Below, piece after piece: positions 21,081 through 55,292 of a stretch of 58,534 nt of DNA. Both the position numbers and the translations under genes were made by a program. The number at the start of each line of letters is the position of its first letter. The first letter of the stretch is position 1. A model generated the notes under the pieces. The model saw only the letters and a list, made by a program, of their open reading frames with translations, had not been told where the DNA came from and ran no database searches. This DNA comes from a virus. The stretch spans positions 1 through 58,534 of the IMG/VR virus record IMGVR_UViG_3300017763_000017; one strand, 5' to 3'.

Positions 21081-21391
21081 AATTCAACCCATATGTGAAT
21101 AGAGTTATTTTCTATCCTTTTGTATAAAACGCCACTGGATGTATCAAACCACTCATCACCTAGTTCTGCATGAAAAGGCTCAGTACTAGACTCATACAGA
21201 ACCGATCTATCCGACAAAGAAAGCCATCCTGCTTTCTCCCCCAGACTAGGAGACAATCCCTCAATCTTCTTAGATGCGATATATGTTTTACTTTCATGGT
21301 AAACAACATCACCAACTTTATAACAAATGACATTTCCGGATGCACGTTTTGCCTTAAAGTCTCCGATAAAATTAAAATTAGTAATTTTCAT
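21077..21391 (-). CDS. Hypothetical protein with carbohydrate-binding-like motif
   Basis: This 104-residue protein contains YKVGDVVYHESKTYIASKKIEG (about 25-46), then GWLSLSD. This resembles the Y..GD.V.Y.G..Y.A......G..P....W unit of small chitin/cellulose-binding modules and phage tail proteins. The C-terminal half (AELGDEWFDTSSGVLYKRIE...WVEL) is the display unit seen in several fiber proteins of this window. Despite this it sits in the replication block, between two unknown genes, with four-base overlaps on both sides. A virion or surface-binding role is possible but unproven. Confidence 0.5.
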   Translation of the reverse strand: MKITNFNFIGDFKAKRASGNVICYKVGDVVYHESKTYIASKKIEGLSPSLGEKAGWLSLSDRSVLYESSTEPFHAELGDEWFDTSSGVLYKRIENNSIHIWVEL

Positions 21392-22116
21392 GAAGTAACC
21401 CTAACCAAAATTGTGGTATCGTTAAATCTTCCTGTTGCTTCCCTAGATTTTGTTTTACACCTAATTAACTCACCGCGAATGTTAGCAGGTCCAATCTCTG
21501 AAAATCGAGGGATCATCTTATCCGCAGTCCTTCCAATCTTTTTCACGAAGGACTTTTCAGAATTAAAATTCTGCAGAGTAGTTCCCTTAATTCCAAATGA
21601 ACTATCGGTTTCGTAATAAAAGGCGTCACCAGTTTTTATATTATATGCAACAAAAGACTTACAGTCCAAAATCTTGACAGGATCAAAAGAATTTACCAGA
21701 ACTTTTCCAAACATCGAATTGTCCATATACTTCAATGTTTTAACAATATCCTCTGGTTTTTTGACCTTCTTCTTTTTGGTAATCTTGGAGTAAGAGGCAA
21801 AGTCATCACAAATGTCAGAAACAAATTGATGAAGTTTTTTCAACTTACCCGGACTAAGAAAATCATAACCTTCCACTAGATCAGGATCTGTATGATCTAT
21901 AGCCTCAGTCAATTCATCCTTGAGATTAGTAAACCACTGTGCGATATACTTTGCCTCAGACTTTTTGATTTTGTATGTTTTAAGAAGATTAATCAATCTC
22001 TTCTTTTTATTATAGTCATTGTTTTTTAGATTTTCGATATATCCATCAATCCATGACTCTACATGTTCTGCGACTTCTTCTGCTTCTTTTGTTACTCTAG
22101 TTCCTAGTTTAGTCAT
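21388..22116 (-). CDS. Conserved-type phage hypothetical protein
   Basis: This 242-residue protein has a Lys/Glu-rich helical N-terminal half (about 1-120), a basic patch ITKKKKVKKPED (about 111-122) and a C-terminal beta-rich part (SFVAYNIKTGDAFYYET, IKGTTLQNFNSEKSFVKKIG). The C-terminal half resembles a domain I have seen in many phage hypothetical proteins of replication regions, but I cannot name a function. The start overlaps the methyltransferase stop (ATGA). A role linked to DNA metabolism is suggested by position only. Confidence 0.5.
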   Translation of the reverse strand: MTKLGTRVTKEAEEVAEHVESWIDGYIENLKNNDYNKKKRLINLLKTYKIKKSEAKYIAQWFTNLKDELTEAIDHTDPDLVEGYDFLSPGKLKKLHQFVSDICDDFASYSKITKKKKVKKPEDIVKTLKYMDNSMFGKVLVNSFDPVKILDCKSFVAYNIKTGDAFYYETDSSFGIKGTTLQNFNSEKSFVKKIGRTADKMIPRFSEIGPANIRGELIRCKTKSREATGRFNDTTILVRVTS

Positions 22117-23684
22117 TGTTCTTTCCTAAAGACATATACTGGTTCATATTTATAATATTTGCTTTCTACCATGCAGTAGTTTTTACATTTAGGCTTACCA
22201 TCATCCCCAACTCTATTTTGTCCGGGCATTCCCTCCATAGCCATCTTTAACTTATCAACGTAAACTAATCCATTTTGTTCTACAAACTTTCGAGAATCTT
22301 CTTCTAGGGGAAGGTATTCGCCCTTAATTAGAATATCTGCTATATTCCACAGAAGATATCCACCACATTTTAGCATATCACAACACGTTTGTAAAGTAGG
22401 TTTTAGGAAACCATCTCGCCACGACTCATATGTGCTGCCATATTTTTTGTAAGATTGGTTCTCGTCTTCACTATATGCCTCCCGGTTAAAGTAAGGAGGT
22501 GAAGTAAATACAATATCTATATCACCACGATGCTTTAGGAAGTCTTCATTTTTGCCTATTTCTTCTGAACCGAGTCTGTAAATCTCGTAACTATTTGTGT
22601 GGGAGAAGAATGAATTTCCTCTGTATGTCTTAGAGTTATAAAAATGTGCCACATGCGAGTAACGACAAGTTCCATCAGGGAAAAAATTATCAGGATTGGG
22701 GTCAGTACCGATATAGTGAACATCACGGTTGTCCCGAACAGACATAGCACCCAAAATCCTGCCACCCCATCCAGCAGAAGGGTCGTAAATTTTAATTTGT
22801 TTCTGACTTGGTTTAGTGAATCGCTCATATAAGTATTTAGCAGTTCCCGGTGGAAAATTCACTGCTGGTTGAATATAACCAATTCTAAATGCCTTAAATC
22901 CAACCGGAAAAATTTTACCACCCCTTTTGTATATACGAATCGAGTACACCCGATCGTCTGACATATTTTCAATATCGAATGTAGAGTGGTGTCTGTACCT
23001 TAGCCAACCCATATCATTATACTCTGAGACCTGATCTGCCGTGAGTTGCAATATATCAGATTGCTCAACTTGATTGTAACTACTACTCAACCCATCTCGG
23101 ACCTTAACCTCTTCCAAGAAGAAATCTCTATCTCCGAATATTTCAGGTCTAGTAAAAAATGATTGTATCCAATCAGTTGCCTCGGAAACAGAGATGACAG
23201 AAACCTTTCTATTATCCTTCAGTGCGGAAACAGCATGGTCATAAAAGGAGTCGCGTCTAAAATGACGCAAGCTCCCCTTATAGACCTGATCAAGTCGGTT
23301 AGGATCTGATACCAGATCATAAATGGAATATCCATTGTCTGTATCAGTATAATTGATTCTGGTCTTGAACATATTCTCAAAGAATTGATCAACTTCAGAT
23401 CCTATCCGAGACTTGTTTATAATCACATCACCCTCAGAGGTCCCCAGTTCGTCTGTGTGCTCATATTTACTGACAGGAAAGGTCTCTAGTAGATTCCACT
23501 TTTTAATTATGTCATCTATCGACTTTCCAGTTCTAGGAGGACACCCGTGACTATCCCAAATATCAGTAAATGCCTTTCTCATTTTGATAACCCAATCCAT
23601 AAACTGATCGGGTGTCATCTCTAAAAGATCTTCAAAATTTACATTTACATCACTATTAATAATATAGTCGTTGCGTTCGTACAA
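22113..23684 (-). CDS. SPPY-type DNA methyltransferase with large N-terminal extension
   Basis: Residues ~280-520 form a class I methyltransferase. Motif I DPSAGWGGR is at about 301-309, the acidic loop GTDPNPDNF follows, and the catalytic SPPY (395-398) is preceded by DIVFT. GGYLLWNIADI then follows. SPPY is typical of amino-methylating (N4-C/N6-A) enzymes. The first ~280 residues match no family I recognise and may hold a specificity domain. The start is a TTG at 23684: AGGAGG lies five bases before it, and no better ATG fits. It follows the PLP-like gene by one base, so the two are probably coexpressed. It may protect phage DNA or take part in base modification. Confidence 0.8.
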   Translation of the reverse strand: MYERNDYIINSDVNVNFEDLLEMTPDQFMDWVIKMRKAFTDIWDSHGCPPRTGKSIDDIIKKWNLLETFPVSKYEHTDELGTSEGDVIINKSRIGSEVDQFFENMFKTRINYTDTDNGYSIYDLVSDPNRLDQVYKGSLRHFRRDSFYDHAVSALKDNRKVSVISVSEATDWIQSFFTRPEIFGDRDFFLEEVKVRDGLSSSYNQVEQSDILQLTADQVSEYNDMGWLRYRHHSTFDIENMSDDRVYSIRIYKRGGKIFPVGFKAFRIGYIQPAVNFPPGTAKYLYERFTKPSQKQIKIYDPSAGWGGRILGAMSVRDNRDVHYIGTDPNPDNFFPDGTCRYSHVAHFYNSKTYRGNSFFSHTNSYEIYRLGSEEIGKNEDFLKHRGDIDIVFTSPPYFNREAYSEDENQSYKKYGSTYESWRDGFLKPTLQTCCDMLKCGGYLLWNIADILIKGEYLPLEEDSRKFVEQNGLVYVDKLKMAMEGMPGQNRVGDDGKPKCKNYCMVESKYYKYEPVYVFRKEQ

Positions 23685-23685
23685 T

Positions 23686-24447
23686 CTATCCTCCTACATT
23701 CCAAAATAAAGCACCCGGACTGGCATACTTCTTCATGAATTCCCACGCTTTCGCGTCGTATGTTTGTGCTGATGGGAACGGGGGCAAGACTTTTGTTGGT
23801 TTGTTGAATGGGTAGGGGGACTCATACGTCTTTGCTCTTCCATATGAGCCACGATGTCCCACACGCACACAATGAAACTCGGCGCTTGGCCATGCGATCT
23901 GTAATCCTCTCGTGAGTGTTCCACTTGATCCTACGCTCCAGACTTCAGTTGGTCTAATATCCATACTACCAGCAACCCTAACGATGGAAGAGATAACAGA
24001 AGGATGTTCAAAACCAATAGGAAGTAATCTACGGCGGATTGGATCTTCTGCAACATAATCTCGTGCTCGCTTTTCTGTTACACTAAGCATCCCGTTTGGG
24101 ATCCAATGAATTATAGCACCAAGTTCCTCCGCACGCAACTGATAAGAATGTAAATTTTTTCTGTCTCGTTTTGCCATAAACAAAACCGACTTCTTACCAT
24201 AGTTGTTGCACAAACAAGTAAGAGAAATCTGTGCGTACCCAGTTGCGGGCGAACTCCCATATACCCATTCTTCTACCTCCGGATTTGATTGTATAATAAA
24301 ATCTGCAAATCTGACCTTAGACCCACCACCCAATAAGTCATCACGAACAACATTAAATCCGTGATAATGCTGAACGACTGGCTTTGGGTTGGGATCCCCC
24401 CAGTCACCTATATCAAATAGATCTTCTTCGAATAGGGATGGACTCAT
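23686..24447 (-). CDS. PLP-dependent fold-type II enzyme-like protein (ACC deaminase/cysteine desulfhydrase-like)
   Basis: This 253-residue protein has FNVVRDDLLGGGSKVR (31-46), like the KR.D....GGNK.R segment of ACC deaminase and D-cysteine desulfhydrase, with Lys44 the candidate PLP lysine. VYGSSPATGYAQISLTCLCN matches the substrate-binding (S/N)xxxA region, and SVGSSGTLTRGL the phosphate-binding Gly-rich loop. Known enzymes are ~320-340 residues, so ~80 are missing, mostly near the C-terminus. It lies between gp46 and a DNA methyltransferase, with a four-base overlap with gp46. It may act on an amino acid or on a modified base; the reaction is not known. Confidence 0.65.
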   Translation of the reverse strand: MSPSLFEEDLFDIGDWGDPNPKPVVQHYHGFNVVRDDLLGGGSKVRFADFIIQSNPEVEEWVYGSSPATGYAQISLTCLCNNYGKKSVLFMAKRDRKNLHSYQLRAEELGAIIHWIPNGMLSVTEKRARDYVAEDPIRRRLLPIGFEHPSVISSIVRVAGSMDIRPTEVWSVGSSGTLTRGLQIAWPSAEFHCVRVGHRGSYGRAKTYESPYPFNKPTKVLPPFPSAQTYDAKAWEFMKKYASPGALFWNVGG

Positions 24448-26159
24448 TTTAATCTACTAAAATTATTCTTCTTATAAAAAGTTAAACTATTATTAAAACG
24501 ATCTGCTAGTTGATCACTCTTGTGCGTTATGACAAAAATATTACTTTCGGTGGACAGATCCCTAAGAACTTTCATGAGATCGTCCACACCAACAGAGTCC
24601 AGAGACGAATCAAATATTTCATCTAGTATTAATAAATTGCAGTGAGCACTATTTTTTATCTTTGCAATCTTTCTCCAAGCAAGAAGAATTGCTAGATCAA
24701 TTCTAGATTTTTCACCTTCACTAAAATTCATGTAACTAAAAGTGTCCCTATGTCTACTTTTAATTTCTTCGTTAAATTCTTCATCTAATGAAAAGGAAAC
24801 AAAGAAATTCATATGAGTAAGATATTTATTTATGATCTCGTTAATTACAGGTAAGTAATTTTTTATGATTTTTGATTTTATACCAGAGTCTTTGAGTAAT
24901 AAAAACAACACATCTAAATTTGACTTTAATTCTTTCTGTCTTACCACTCGTTCTTTGTGTGCATATAAATCAGATTCGTAATCTCTCTGTTTTCCTTCAC
25001 ACTCCAATATGTTTTCATCAAAGCTACTGGATTCATTTTCAGATTCTAGTAGAGAAGTCATATACTTATTGGCAGCATTTATTTCACTATTCTTTTCTCG
25101 TATCGACTGCTCTATATTTTTACTAACTAAAAATTTCTGCTTCAATTCATCTAAAGAACTTTTCAATTCAGTGTAATCAGTTTTAAAAGAAATTATACTA
25201 GATTCTATTTCATCTTTAGATTCATTTAAATCAGATAATTTATCTCCTTTAAACTCTTCCGTAATTTCCTGACTGCATGTTGGACAGACGCTGTTCTCGT
25301 CATAGAATGAAATAGAACTAATAGTCTTTTTCTTATCCTTTATCAAATTAACAATAGAACTTTCAAATTTACCCAGTTTATTCTCTATCGTTTTCTGTTC
25401 ACTTTCTACCTCAGAATACGGCAATAAAGAATCGGTTAATTGCGATAGTTCCTCATTAAAAATTTTTATTTCATTCTTTAGTTTCTCTACTTTGTTTGTT
25501 AGGTTGGAGGCGCTTTCATTTTTCTTATCCGAAAAAGATTTAATAGTTTGTTCCTGAACTTCTATCTTTTCGGTTAGAACTTCCATTTTATTTTGTAACT
25601 CTCGAACTTGATTTTTTGTCATGGACAATTTAGCTTTGATAATTTGGTTCATTGCACTGAATATATTAATGTCTAAAATATCTTCAATCACTTCCCTTCT
25701 ATCCACAGCAGAAAGTTGCATGAAAGGAACAAATGAAGAACTACCAAGAGTTACAATCTGAGTGAACGACTTATAATTCATTTTTAAGATCTGATCTTCT
25801 AAAAGTTTTTGGTAATCTTTAGCTTTTGCAGACTGTTGCAGTAGTTCTCCATTTTTGTGAATCTCAAATTTCTTAGGTTTTAAACCACGAACAATTTCAT
25901 AGGTGTCACCATAAATTTCAAATGTTAACTGCACAACACAATTTTTATTGTTCATTGTGTTGATAAGCTGAGGTATATTTATTTTCCTAAATGGCTTACC
26001 AAACAAAGCAAACGTAATAGAATCTAAAAGAGCATAGGATTTACCGTGACCATTTGATCCAGAAACTAGGGTCATGTTATCACTACAAAAATCTATCTCA
26101 GTAAAATAATTACCAAAAGAACCGAAGTTTTTAAATTTAACAGTTTTAAACTTTATCAT
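24444..26159 (-). CDS. 46: Recombination exonuclease subunit gp46 (Rad50-like)
   Basis: This 571-residue SMC-type ATPase has Walker A GSNGHGKS (about 34-41), long coiled coils and a central zinc hook CPTC (near residue 290). The signature NFSEGEKSRIDLAILLAW is near 475 and Walker B LLILDEIFDSS near 507. With gp47 it forms the nuclease that resects DNA ends and degrades host DNA. Length matches T4 gp46 (560). It overlaps the SET-like gene by four bases. Confidence 0.95.
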   Translation of the reverse strand: MIKFKTVKFKNFGSFGNYFTEIDFCSDNMTLVSGSNGHGKSYALLDSITFALFGKPFRKINIPQLINTMNNKNCVVQLTFEIYGDTYEIVRGLKPKKFEIHKNGELLQQSAKAKDYQKLLEDQILKMNYKSFTQIVTLGSSSFVPFMQLSAVDRREVIEDILDINIFSAMNQIIKAKLSMTKNQVRELQNKMEVLTEKIEVQEQTIKSFSDKKNESASNLTNKVEKLKNEIKIFNEELSQLTDSLLPYSEVESEQKTIENKLGKFESSIVNLIKDKKKTISSISFYDENSVCPTCSQEITEEFKGDKLSDLNESKDEIESSIISFKTDYTELKSSLDELKQKFLVSKNIEQSIREKNSEINAANKYMTSLLESENESSSFDENILECEGKQRDYESDLYAHKERVVRQKELKSNLDVLFLLLKDSGIKSKIIKNYLPVINEIINKYLTHMNFFVSFSLDEEFNEEIKSRHRDTFSYMNFSEGEKSRIDLAILLAWRKIAKIKNSAHCNLLILDEIFDSSLDSVGVDDLMKVLRDLSTESNIFVITHKSDQLADRFNNSLTFYKKNNFSRLK

Positions 26160-26773
26160 TTGTCAACTTTAATACTTTTTAACTCCTCATTCCCTACCAT
26201 AGACTTAAATTTTGAACTACGTTTAATTTGGTTTTTTGGTAGTTCGACTGGTTTCTTGTTTAGTATTTTTGGAGGTCCGGAAGATTGCTTAGGTAATGAT
26301 GTTGGTGTTACTCCCGAAGTTTTCTTTTTACCGCAACCACAACCCTTATTTTCTTTATCTGGTTTCATGGGTTTATCCTCCGGAACAATTGGATAAAATA
26401 AAATTTCTTCTCCCACATCTATATCTTTGATTGCTCTAACAGTCACAATTCCAAAACGATGATCGTGTTGATATACTGCGTTGTTTTCTGGATATGAACG
26501 ATATGAGGTAAAGTTCCCCCCGACCATATACAAAGAAGTTTTCTGTGTTGTGATATCATACGAAGTAACTAAACCATCAAGTAGTTCCTCATCTGTATCG
26601 TCCGATTTGTACATAGCCTCTAAAGTAGAAGATATTTTTTTAGTTGCACACTCTTCTATAACCTGACCCATTTTAAATCTCTGGGTTGCAACTACAACAT
26701 ATCCATTTTTAGTGCCTTTGAGTTTACATCCCTTTGATATAAAATCACTATAATAAAAATTACCGTCATTCAT
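26156..26773 (-). CDS. SET-domain-like protein between gp47 and gp46
   Basis: This 205-residue protein has an N-terminal GYVVVATQRFKMGQVIEE (about 24-41). Later comes SYRSYPENNAVYQHDHRFGIVTVRAIKDIDVGEEILFYP (about 90-128). This is the order of a SET fold: G.GVFA...I..GE.I, then a PNA segment, then R.I.V.A.RDI..GEEL...Y. The usual NHS is replaced by RSYP, so methyltransferase activity is uncertain. The C-terminal 70 residues are disordered-like, with GCGCGKKK and many Pro/Lys. Four-base overlaps with gp47 and gp46 show it is part of the recombination operon. Confidence 0.55.
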   Translation of the reverse strand: MNDGNFYYSDFISKGCKLKGTKNGYVVVATQRFKMGQVIEECATKKISSTLEAMYKSDDTDEELLDGLVTSYDITTQKTSLYMVGGNFTSYRSYPENNAVYQHDHRFGIVTVRAIKDIDVGEEILFYPIVPEDKPMKPDKENKGCGCGKKKTSGVTPTSLPKQSSGPPKILNKKPVELPKNQIKRSSKFKSMVGNEELKSIKVDK

Positions 26774-30887: not shown

Positions 30888-31409
30888 TCATACTGTTTCT
30901 AAATCATAATAAGAATATCTAAACGTCACTGAAGAAGATAGCTGAATACTATCTGCAGAAGTTGTAGTAAAGGAAAACCCAGTTAGTGATATAGGAAACA
31001 TATTGTAAAAACTAAATTTAAATTCTGGTTTATACGCACTGTTTAATATAATTAATTCACCAACCGTGGTAGATACATTACAATCATTGTACATGATTTC
31101 TTCTGTTTCTTCATTCATTGGACCCAGTCTTTTGAGCCACTCATATATTTCTCTCCAACTCTCTAGTTTTTCATCTACCAAAAACGAAAGTGTTAGATCT
31201 TCAAAAATATACTTACCTGTTGCTGTTGGTATGTTAACACCAAAGGCAGTATTTAAATCTGCACTGATAAATTCAATGGAAGGAACGTTCACCCCAGTAA
31301 CATAATTCGACAGAATTGGAATTCTGGATGTATTGAATTTAAACTGATTTGCTGTTAGCAAATTAGAAGTGCTAGGTGTGCTACCAAGATGTCTGGGATC
31401 GTTGCTCAT
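30888..31409 (-). CDS. Tail-tube-fold protein at the gp3 position (tail completion candidate)
   Basis: This 173-residue protein (NLLTANQFKFNTSRIPILSNYVTGVNVPSIEF..., then YIFEDLTLSFLVDEKLESWREIYEWLKRLGPM and ISLTGFSFTTTSADSIQLSSSVTFRYSYYDL) has the layout of the gp19/gp54/gp3-type tail tube fold. In several marine T4-like phages a tail completion protein lies between gp23 and uvsY, and is often called gp3. A TATAAATA late promoter ends five bases before the ATG, and no Shine-Dalgarno site precedes it, so a leaderless mRNA is likely. The exact T4 equivalent is not certain. Confidence 0.55.
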   Translation of the reverse strand: MSNDPRHLGSTPSTSNLLTANQFKFNTSRIPILSNYVTGVNVPSIEFISADLNTAFGVNIPTATGKYIFEDLTLSFLVDEKLESWREIYEWLKRLGPMNEETEEIMYNDCNVSTTVGELIILNSAYKPEFKFSFYNMFPISLTGFSFTTTSADSIQLSSSVTFRYSYYDLETV

Positions 31410-54252: not shown

Positions 54253-54684
54253 ATGGCATATAAATCCAGATATAAACCAAATAACCCAAGCAAGTACGTC
54301 GGTGACGTAGATAAGATAGTTTGTAGGTCTACTTGGGAAAGAAAAATGTGCAAATTTCTGGATCTCAATGAAAACGTAATCTCATGGGCGTCAGAAGAAT
54401 TAGCAATCCCCTATTTTTCTCCGGTCGATGATAAATGGCATCGATACTATCCAGATTTCATGTGTAAAATCAAAAACAAAACCGGGTCCATAGACAAACT
54501 GATCATAGAAGTCAAACCGGAAAAGCAAACAAAACCACCCAAGTCTAAAAAACAAACAAGAAATTATTTGAGAGAGATGAAAACTTTTGCCATAAATACC
54601 TATAAGTGGGAAGCAGCAGAAAAATTCTGCCAAGAAAATGGTTGGGTCTTTAAAATCTTAACAGAAAAGGATCTCTTCAAATGA
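54253..54684 (+). CDS. 4: Head completion protein gp4
   Basis: This 143-residue protein matches T4 gp4 (150) from the first residue: MAYKSRYKPNNPSKYVGDVDKIVCRSTWERKMCKFLDLN (T4: MAY....P.N.SKY.GD...I.YRS.WE). It continues with IPYFSPVDDKWHRYYPDFMCK and IIEVKPEKQTKPPK. gp4 completes filled heads before tail attachment. The D/E...EVKP pattern resembles a nuclease-like fold. No Shine-Dalgarno site is seen. The stop overlaps the next start (ATGA). Confidence 0.92.
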   Translation: MAYKSRYKPNNPSKYVGDVDKIVCRSTWERKMCKFLDLNENVISWASEELAIPYFSPVDDKWHRYYPDFMCKIKNKTGSIDKLIIEVKPEKQTKPPKSKKQTRNYLREMKTFAINTYKWEAAEKFCQENGWVFKILTEKDLFK

Positions 54685-55292
54685 ATCTATCCACAATAAA
54701 GAACAAGTTCTTTAACTATGATCGCGTACTCAGACAGAATCGTTTTTCTGTGGATATGTCGTTTGTTAGTCCTGTTGATGGCGGCGGCGTTTTTGCTGCA
54801 GGAGAACCTGCAGTTCTTGTTTCATCGCCAACAGTAAACCTGATGATGGCACCATTTGAGTTTCAAAATGTTCCTATCAATATACCAGTAAAAAGAGAAC
54901 CACAGCAAGATTTGTTAATTCGTTTTTATGCAGTAGAAAGTTTGGATATATACACCCAACTCCTAACATTGATCAAACAATATGGTGGTGAGCCAACTGT
55001 AGCGAATGCAAGACCGACTGCTTACGCACCCGGCACTTTTTATAATGACACCATAAGAAATAACAGAATTTTAGTTAGAATGATCACATCCGATGGTAGA
55101 CCGGGTGGTATTAACCCACAGTCAGACGGAGCGGTAAATTACATACAGTATGCTGATGCATATCCACACTTTATACAGCCGATAAATTTCAGTTCGGAAT
55201 CTGATTCACAACCACTTACATTCGACGTACTATTTAAATATGCATACAACTTTACCAGATACGAGGCTCAACTCGGCGGTACTAACTTTTGA
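54681..55292 (+). CDS. Baseplate-tail tube initiator gp54-like
   Basis: This 203-residue protein has YDRVLRQNRFSVDMSF (about 13-28), EPQQDLLIRFYAVESLDIYTQLLTLIKQYGG (about 73-103), and ADAYPHFIQPINFSSESDSQPLTFDVLFKYAYNF (about 158-191). The order matches the tube-fold protein gp54 of T4 (FQRNNMFSCVF, LDPLVISFRMDS, ITTFDVTFAYRVM). It is shorter than T4 gp54 (320). The call is a pattern match; another tube-fold protein is possible. It overlaps gp4 by four bases. Confidence 0.5.
   Translation: MNLSTIKNKFFNYDRVLRQNRFSVDMSFVSPVDGGGVFAAGEPAVLVSSPTVNLMMAPFEFQNVPINIPVKREPQQDLLIRFYAVESLDIYTQLLTLIKQYGGEPTVANARPTAYAPGTFYNDTIRNNRILVRMITSDGRPGGINPQSDGAVNYIQYADAYPHFIQPINFSSESDSQPLTFDVLFKYAYNFTRYEAQLGGTNF

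Follow-up and report, generated by a model that had tools for sequence, protein, structure and literature searches.

Hypermodification of phage DNA is known to start from a hydroxyl handle on the base (5-hmdU, 5-hmC) or, since 2025, from a carboxyl handle (5cxmC). The 5-NedU pathway of Pseudomonas phages M6, PAE1 and CN2 starts from 5-hydroxymethyluridine, and these M6-type phages possess a dUMP hydroxymethylase, a kinase and an amino acid:DNA transferase, as well as a PLP protein of the phrog_7093 family. The transferase (PF18724) is encoded directly before the PLP relative in PAE1, and one small gene separates the two in CN2. Work on M6 and ViI in PNAS in 2018 and in NAR in 2021 is said to assign to their PLP enzymes the decarboxylation of DNA-linked amino acids. 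In the ViI-like Ackermannviridae the PLP protein of the 5-NeOmdU pathway is of another type, phrog_3650, and 5-NeOmdU is present in ViI-type DNA (PMC11721090). The carboxymethylcytosine system CmoX/CmoA/CmoY of Synechococcus phage S-B43 relies on a homologue of DNA methyltransferases (MTases) that uses an altered SAM; the paper describing it reports no N6/N4 counterpart with CmoA (PMC12783734).

In this study, adjacent genes for a PLP protein and a SPPY-type MTase were analyzed in a virus record of 58.5 kb, a fragment of a T4-like marine myovirus whose hosts are marine bacteria; this whole stretch of DNA is referred to as the window. The PLP protein belongs to the same family as those of M6, PAE1 and CN2, whereas the hydroxymethylase, kinase and transferase of M6-type phages were detected neither in the window nor in its relatives, and the T4-like relatives searched also differ from ViI-like phages in showing no hmdU kinase, ThyA-like enzyme or amino acid:DNA transferase. 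Among 13 related records, which may be fragments although several are 100-165 kb long, the ThyA-like dUMP hydroxymethylase (PF00303), the hmdU DNA kinase (PF18723) and the amino acid:DNA transferase (PF18724) each occurred in 0/13, and ThyX occurred in 5/13. The Cx-SAM synthase CmoA (TIGR00740) was likewise found in 0/13. Owing to the absence of both the hmdU-pathway genes and CmoA, the PLP gene is not accounted for by either the hydroxymethyl or the carboxymethyl route. The locus would resemble the CmoX system in its combination of a DNA-MTase homologue and a modified SAM that install a handle with further tailoring enzymes. However, CmoX is a C5-cytosine MTase supplied with Cx-SAM, whereas the protein described here is of the SPPY amino type, has a putative decarboxylase as its partner and is not accompanied by CmoA. 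Since the PF18724 loader adjoins the PLP gene in PAE1 and CN2, the amino-MTase appears to take the place of the loader at this locus.

Architecture of the gene pair and its products

The window carries a T4-like gene set comprising a clamp loader, gp46/47, UvsY, a late sigma-like factor, the portal and the major head protein. The gene pair, its neighbours and the sites discussed below are as follows.

24444..26159, minus strand: gp46-like recombination nuclease subunit, upstream neighbour, 4-nt overlap with the PLP gene
23686..24447, minus strand: fold-type-II PLP protein of the phrog_7093 family, 253 aa, ATG start; proposed decarboxylase
24316..24318, minus strand: Lys44 (GGSK), proposed Schiff-base lysine, invariant in all aligned PLP relatives
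23743..23760, minus strand: YDAKAW motif, residues 230-235 of the PLP protein, YD or YE in all relatives
22113..23684, minus strand: SPPY amino-methyltransferase-like protein, 523 aa, TTG start
22875..23684, minus strand: first ~270 residues of the MTase protein, without a family match above cut-off
22758..22787, minus strand: SAM-binding motif I, YDPSAGWGGR, residues 300-309 of the MTase protein
22491..22502, minus strand: catalytic motif IV, SPPY, residues 395-398 of the MTase protein
21388..22116, minus strand: phrog_11903 protein, conserved next gene, 4-nt overlap with the MTase 3' end

The original prediction placed a PLP reading frame one base ahead of a SPPY MTase inside a DNA-metabolism operon, and both frames were found at these positions, in a tight operon. 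The TAG stop codon of the PLP gene ends at 23686, the single base 23685 follows and the MTase TTG begins at 23684, with an AGGAGG ribosome site, formed by the final PLP codons, 5 nt upstream of the TTG. The minus-strand run of gp46-like, PLP, MTase and phrog_11903 genes is translationally coupled. The arrangement of the pair is kept in tens of independent contigs and is therefore not a product of chance. The sole trace of a restriction endonuclease that would partner the MTase was a weak, sub-threshold match to CfrBI in the phrog_11903 protein.

Two further features of the window were recorded. A SET-domain protein (PF00856 above cut-off) is encoded between the gp46- and gp47-like genes (26156-26773, minus strand) and is kept in many relatives; this protein-methylating domain is unusual for a phage recombination operon. 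A second tail-tube-like gene (phrog_45) is located at 54681-55292 on the plus strand, besides that at 30888-31409 on the minus strand.

The PLP protein alone gave no Pfam hit, its relatives match PALP in Pfam, and a profile search matched its residues 28-252 to phrog_7093, annotated 'threonine dehydratase', with an E value of 3.6e-37. Searches of PDB sequences with the PLP or the MTase protein singly gave no match. The structural model of the PLP protein has a pLDDT of 92.5, and the ACC deaminase homologue 1j0a aligns with 244 of its 253 residues (Z 22.9, rmsd 2.9); D-cysteine desulfhydrase fits the model equally well, with Z 22.9 and 242-244 residues for both folds. The expectation that the protein had lost part of the usual enzyme was not borne out, since the whole fold is covered; as modelled, it is a trimmed but complete fold-type-II fold.

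Lys44 in the GGSK motif and the GSSGT loop are present, as predicted, and both are conserved among these PLP proteins together with a C-terminal YDAKAW...FWNVGG segment. When window-, M6- and ViI-type sequences were aligned, only seven columns were invariant (R35, D37, K44, G110, Y230, K233 and W249), S175 and G176, in the putative glycine/serine phosphate loop, were nearly so, and an acidic residue always followed Y230. We take Y230-D231 to be the counterpart of the tyrosine-glutamate pair of ACC deaminase, with the acidic residue presumably facing the pyridine nitrogen, a placement that would favour carbanion chemistry such as decarboxylation.

In the MTase protein, residues 389-522 match PF01555 (N6_N4_Mtase) with 29.6 bits against a curated cut-off of 26.7, and type II MTase models also match. 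Motif I and SPPY are conserved in 25 relatives, with motif I preceding motif IV. A comparison of models assigned a class I methyltransferase fold to the C-terminal half, Trm11 being the best match (Z 14.3). A branched polyamine synthase also appeared as fold kin; its Z of 12.9 was tied with dozens of unrelated methyltransferases and was given no weight. Nothing above cut-off was matched in the first ~270 residues, in agreement with the earlier description of the N-terminal stretch as lacking a known family.

Relatives of the MTase were also seen elsewhere. One 157-kb phage record contains a second, distant relative (30%; G001:C1:92399-93040), and Staphylococcus and Mammaliicoccus phages (L088, L090) encode relatives that are without most of the N-terminal region and lie beside helicase and SbcCD-like genes. 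From the latter location, the MTase seems to have belonged to phage recombination operons for a long time.

Pairing in T4-like relatives

MTase loci in IMG/VR with upstream sequence were classed by their PLP state, giving 79 distinct T4-like loci. A PLP gene of the window type is adjacent in 51/79, another PLP type occupies the position in 2/79 and none is present in 26/79. On a tree of 102 MTase sequences the PLP state needs about 5-6 changes, far below the number for shuffled labels, and the PLP gene has therefore passed down the tree together with the MTase, with a small number of losses or replacements. No PLP gene was found elsewhere in 12 PLP-less contigs, in a search run without a positive control. 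MTases with and without the PLP gene show no difference in the active site; only columns 15, 315 and 325 differ.

Seen from the side of the PLP gene, an MTase is in view at 56 distinct loci of the window family and none is in view at 17. The latter include 11 that form a separate branch (L017-L037), two with little flank, one (L124) that shares its contig with an MTase ~6 kb away, and three (L134, L144 and L167) with no MTase within the flanks. Hence, in this lineage a PLP gene nearly always implies an MTase and not vice versa, as expected if the PLP protein serves the MTase or acts on its product.

The gap between gp46 and the MTase takes unrelated cargo in other phages, such as epimerases, HNH and GNAT proteins, and the L017-L037 branch of PLP genes is found without an MTase among nucleotide-metabolism genes. 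Both observations would be in keeping with an auxiliary metabolic gene for small-molecule metabolism of the host, or an enzyme for a counter-defence metabolite, that is merely carried beside the MTase. This explanation is nevertheless improbable, as pairing has arisen independently in two MTase lineages, which arrange the genes in opposite orders, and the PLP domain has even been fused within an MTase (see below).

In five phages without the PLP gene, the space between gp46 and the MTase is filled by a GNAT acetyltransferase: L264 (3522-3980), L270, L271, L278 and L285. In the MTase-less branch, the PLP gene belongs to a conserved cluster (L028:1670-6807; also in L017, L026 and L031) with three enzymes lacking an assigned function and a LOG-like protein, next to ribonucleotide reductase genes. 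The cluster probably represents another base modification route. The group-B neighbours (A5, A6) had been considered as amino acid:DNA transferases; they were not recognizable as such enzymes, two of them gave no Pfam, PHROG or NCBIfam match, and the assignment was dropped.

The replacement of the PLP type was observed in the L051/L053 clade, where the gene ahead of the MTase encodes a PALP-family protein of 318-325 aa that belongs to phrog_3650, the type found in the 5-NeOmdU pathway, here beside a window-type MTase. Relatives of this protein were detected by tblastn in 344 phage records, mostly from Salmonella, Vibrio, Klebsiella, Escherichia and Dickeya phages. It is homologous to ORF169 of Dickeya phage PP35 (E 2e-24), a PLP enzyme that has been listed with genes for the transformation of 5-hmdU (PMC6336734).

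ParB-linked methyltransferases and their PLP or SpeD partners

A second lineage with the same association is formed by the ParB-MTases, annotated as 'DNA modification methylases' of phages and prophages (phrog_498, phrog_12517). They resemble the window pair in having a related MTase domain, with a PLP protein adjacent to it or, unlike in the window, inserted: the catalytic domain is common to both (hhalign E 6.6e-7) and both match phrog_12517. The N-terminus, however, is ParB in these proteins, whereas that of the window MTase is different and showed no similarity to ParB.

The gene order in Microcystis phage Mae-JY30 is ParB, MTase, PLP. In Erythrobacter phages ZS04 and R6L the parts are united in one protein, in which ParB comes first and the PLP domain splits the MTase into a leading half that carries motif I and a trailing half that carries CPPY; the ZS04 fusion protein has 812 aa. 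Pseudanabaena phage Pam4 has a PLP domain of a different subtype inserted at the same point of the MTase. Among the 80 nearest viral ParB-MTases a PLP gene is in view in 40/80, within 400 nt in 35 cases, and all but one of these PLP proteins belong to the window family; SpeD occurs in 0/80, and the other 40/80 have no partner in view. In 34 bacterial contigs, most of them from alphaproteobacteria and likely to be prophages, the ParB-type MTase ends at the PLP start in ~23/34. Relatives of the PLP protein were not found on plasmids. The MTase-associated PLP proteins fall in separate PLP clades.

Co-occurrence of the two genes, for which a neighbourhood survey had been suggested, is thus recurrent in T4-like phages, viral ParB-MTases and bacterial contigs alike, and the coupling between the PLP protein and the MTase is well supported and in our judgement highly probable.

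A sister branch of more distant ParB-MTases has a different partner. In Pseudomonas phage ZRG1 and Croceibacter phage P2559S a gene annotated as S-adenosylmethionine decarboxylase (SpeD) overlaps the 3' end of the ParB-MTase gene, and membership of this family is confirmed by matches to PDB entry 1tlu (E 7e-16 and 4e-10). The same overlap is present at the following loci.

L300:3312-3701, L302:3177-3497, L303:2429-2812 and many of L386-L460: SpeD overlapping the ParB-MTase 3' end

Across 63 distinct loci of this branch, SpeD is in the slot in 54/63, neither partner in 9/63 and PLP in 0/63, and the SpeD proteins keep the ESH and Cys signature. SpeD (PF02675) is absent from the window and was found in two of 18 records, never beside the MTase. 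SpeD homologues are also present in more than 120 cyanophage records.

SpeD beside ParB-MTases may have its role in DNA modification and not in making polyamines. As one MTase family has SpeD and PLP proteins as alternative partners in one slot, the former from a family known to decarboxylate SAM and the latter from one with relatives believed to be decarboxylases, the simplest common product would be an aminopropyl group. The partner need not yield decarboxylated SAM, however, because diverse phage SpeD homologues can decarboxylate ornithine or arginine (PMC10407285). On that ground, the SpeD-like partner might supply amines of the putrescine or agmatine type, with MTase-associated enzymes joining polyamines to DNA or processing them there; the PLP protein would then have a corresponding part in decarboxylating free amino acids. 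We consider this quite unlikely, since the partner that never varies has a SAM-dependent fold, no ligase lies beside it and the relatives of the PLP protein are placed with amino acid chemistry at the DNA level.

The loci without a partner, 26 of 79 in T4-like phages and 40 of 80 among the ParB-MTases, imply that the MTase can act alone, most simply as a methylase, and many MTases of both lineages without a partner may simply methylate. This raises a further explanation in which the MTase of the pair, too, would be an N6-adenine or N4-cytosine methylase of the ordinary kind, in accordance with its standard motif I and SPPY and its match to type II MTase models, while the PLP protein modifies DNA in some other manner, so that the two take part in the same process and neither acts on the product of the other. 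The PLP protein could, for example, add an amino-acid side chain to a base by β-replacement from free serine or phosphoserine, a reaction that is common in fold-type-II enzymes, to which the nearest solved folds, ACC deaminase and D-cysteine desulfhydrase, belong. However, what is presumably the loop that binds the substrate carboxylate is SPATGYAQ-like and not of the SN/GN type usual in such enzymes, as far as we know the family. Furthermore, the insertion of PLP into the MTase fold and the alternation with SpeD point to the chemistry of the MTase cofactor or product. An ordinary methylase in the pair is accordingly rather unlikely, less so than either mere carriage or polyamine handling.

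A proposed aminopropyl modification

Among enzymes acting on tRNA and small molecules, some with the MTase fold are known to draw on the amino-acid portion of SAM; we know of none with a DNA-MTase fold that transfers aminopropyl groups to DNA. No report of DNA aminopropylation or of the PLP/MTase pairing was found in the open literature, to which the search was confined.

The chances seem to us evenly divided as to whether the pair is a DNA hypermodification module that equips adenine or cytosine with an aminopropyl group derived from SAM. In the chemistry that we infer, the MTase-fold protein would move the methionine carbon chain of SAM, and not the methyl group or not only that, onto the exocyclic amine of adenine or cytosine. 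The carboxylate would be removed by the PLP protein, leaving a positively charged 3-aminopropyl group on the DNA, which might block restriction.

Two orders of reaction can be envisaged. In order (a), 3-amino-3-carboxypropyl would be transferred from SAM to DNA and then decarboxylated there by the PLP enzyme; this order is favoured by the PLP relatives believed to decarboxylate amino-acid-linked thymines. In order (b), the PLP enzyme would decarboxylate SAM, and the MTase would then use the decarboxylated SAM for aminopropyl transfer, an order favoured by the alternation with SpeD in the sister branch. We lean slightly towards order (a).

The original prediction that the pair would build or modify a DNA base holds in part. 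A functional pair tied to base modification is strongly supported by co-occurrence in two MTase lineages, insertion of PLP into the MTase and the homology to PLP enzymes of phages that hypermodify thymidine. Building of a base before replication appears less likely than modification at the DNA level, or the supply of its cofactor, and we infer the modification itself from these associations.

If the proposal is correct, an amino-MTase and a decarboxylase would constitute a third route to hypermodification, requiring only SAM, acting on finished DNA and potentially addressing the amines of adenine or cytosine. In its broadest form, to which we attach somewhat less than even confidence, phage and prophage DNA 'methyltransferases' of this kind would transfer aminopropyl or aminocarboxypropyl groups from the amino-acid portion of SAM, and PLP or SpeD proteins would carry out the decarboxylation; N-aminopropyl adenine or cytosine would be a new class of base modification, and the PLP protein possibly the first PLP-dependent SAM decarboxylase. 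As only two small genes are involved, the idea is directly testable. It would provide a new means of placing a primary amine at chosen sites in DNA, and would give a function to many genes that are annotated as DNA methylase, threonine dehydratase or SAM decarboxylase.
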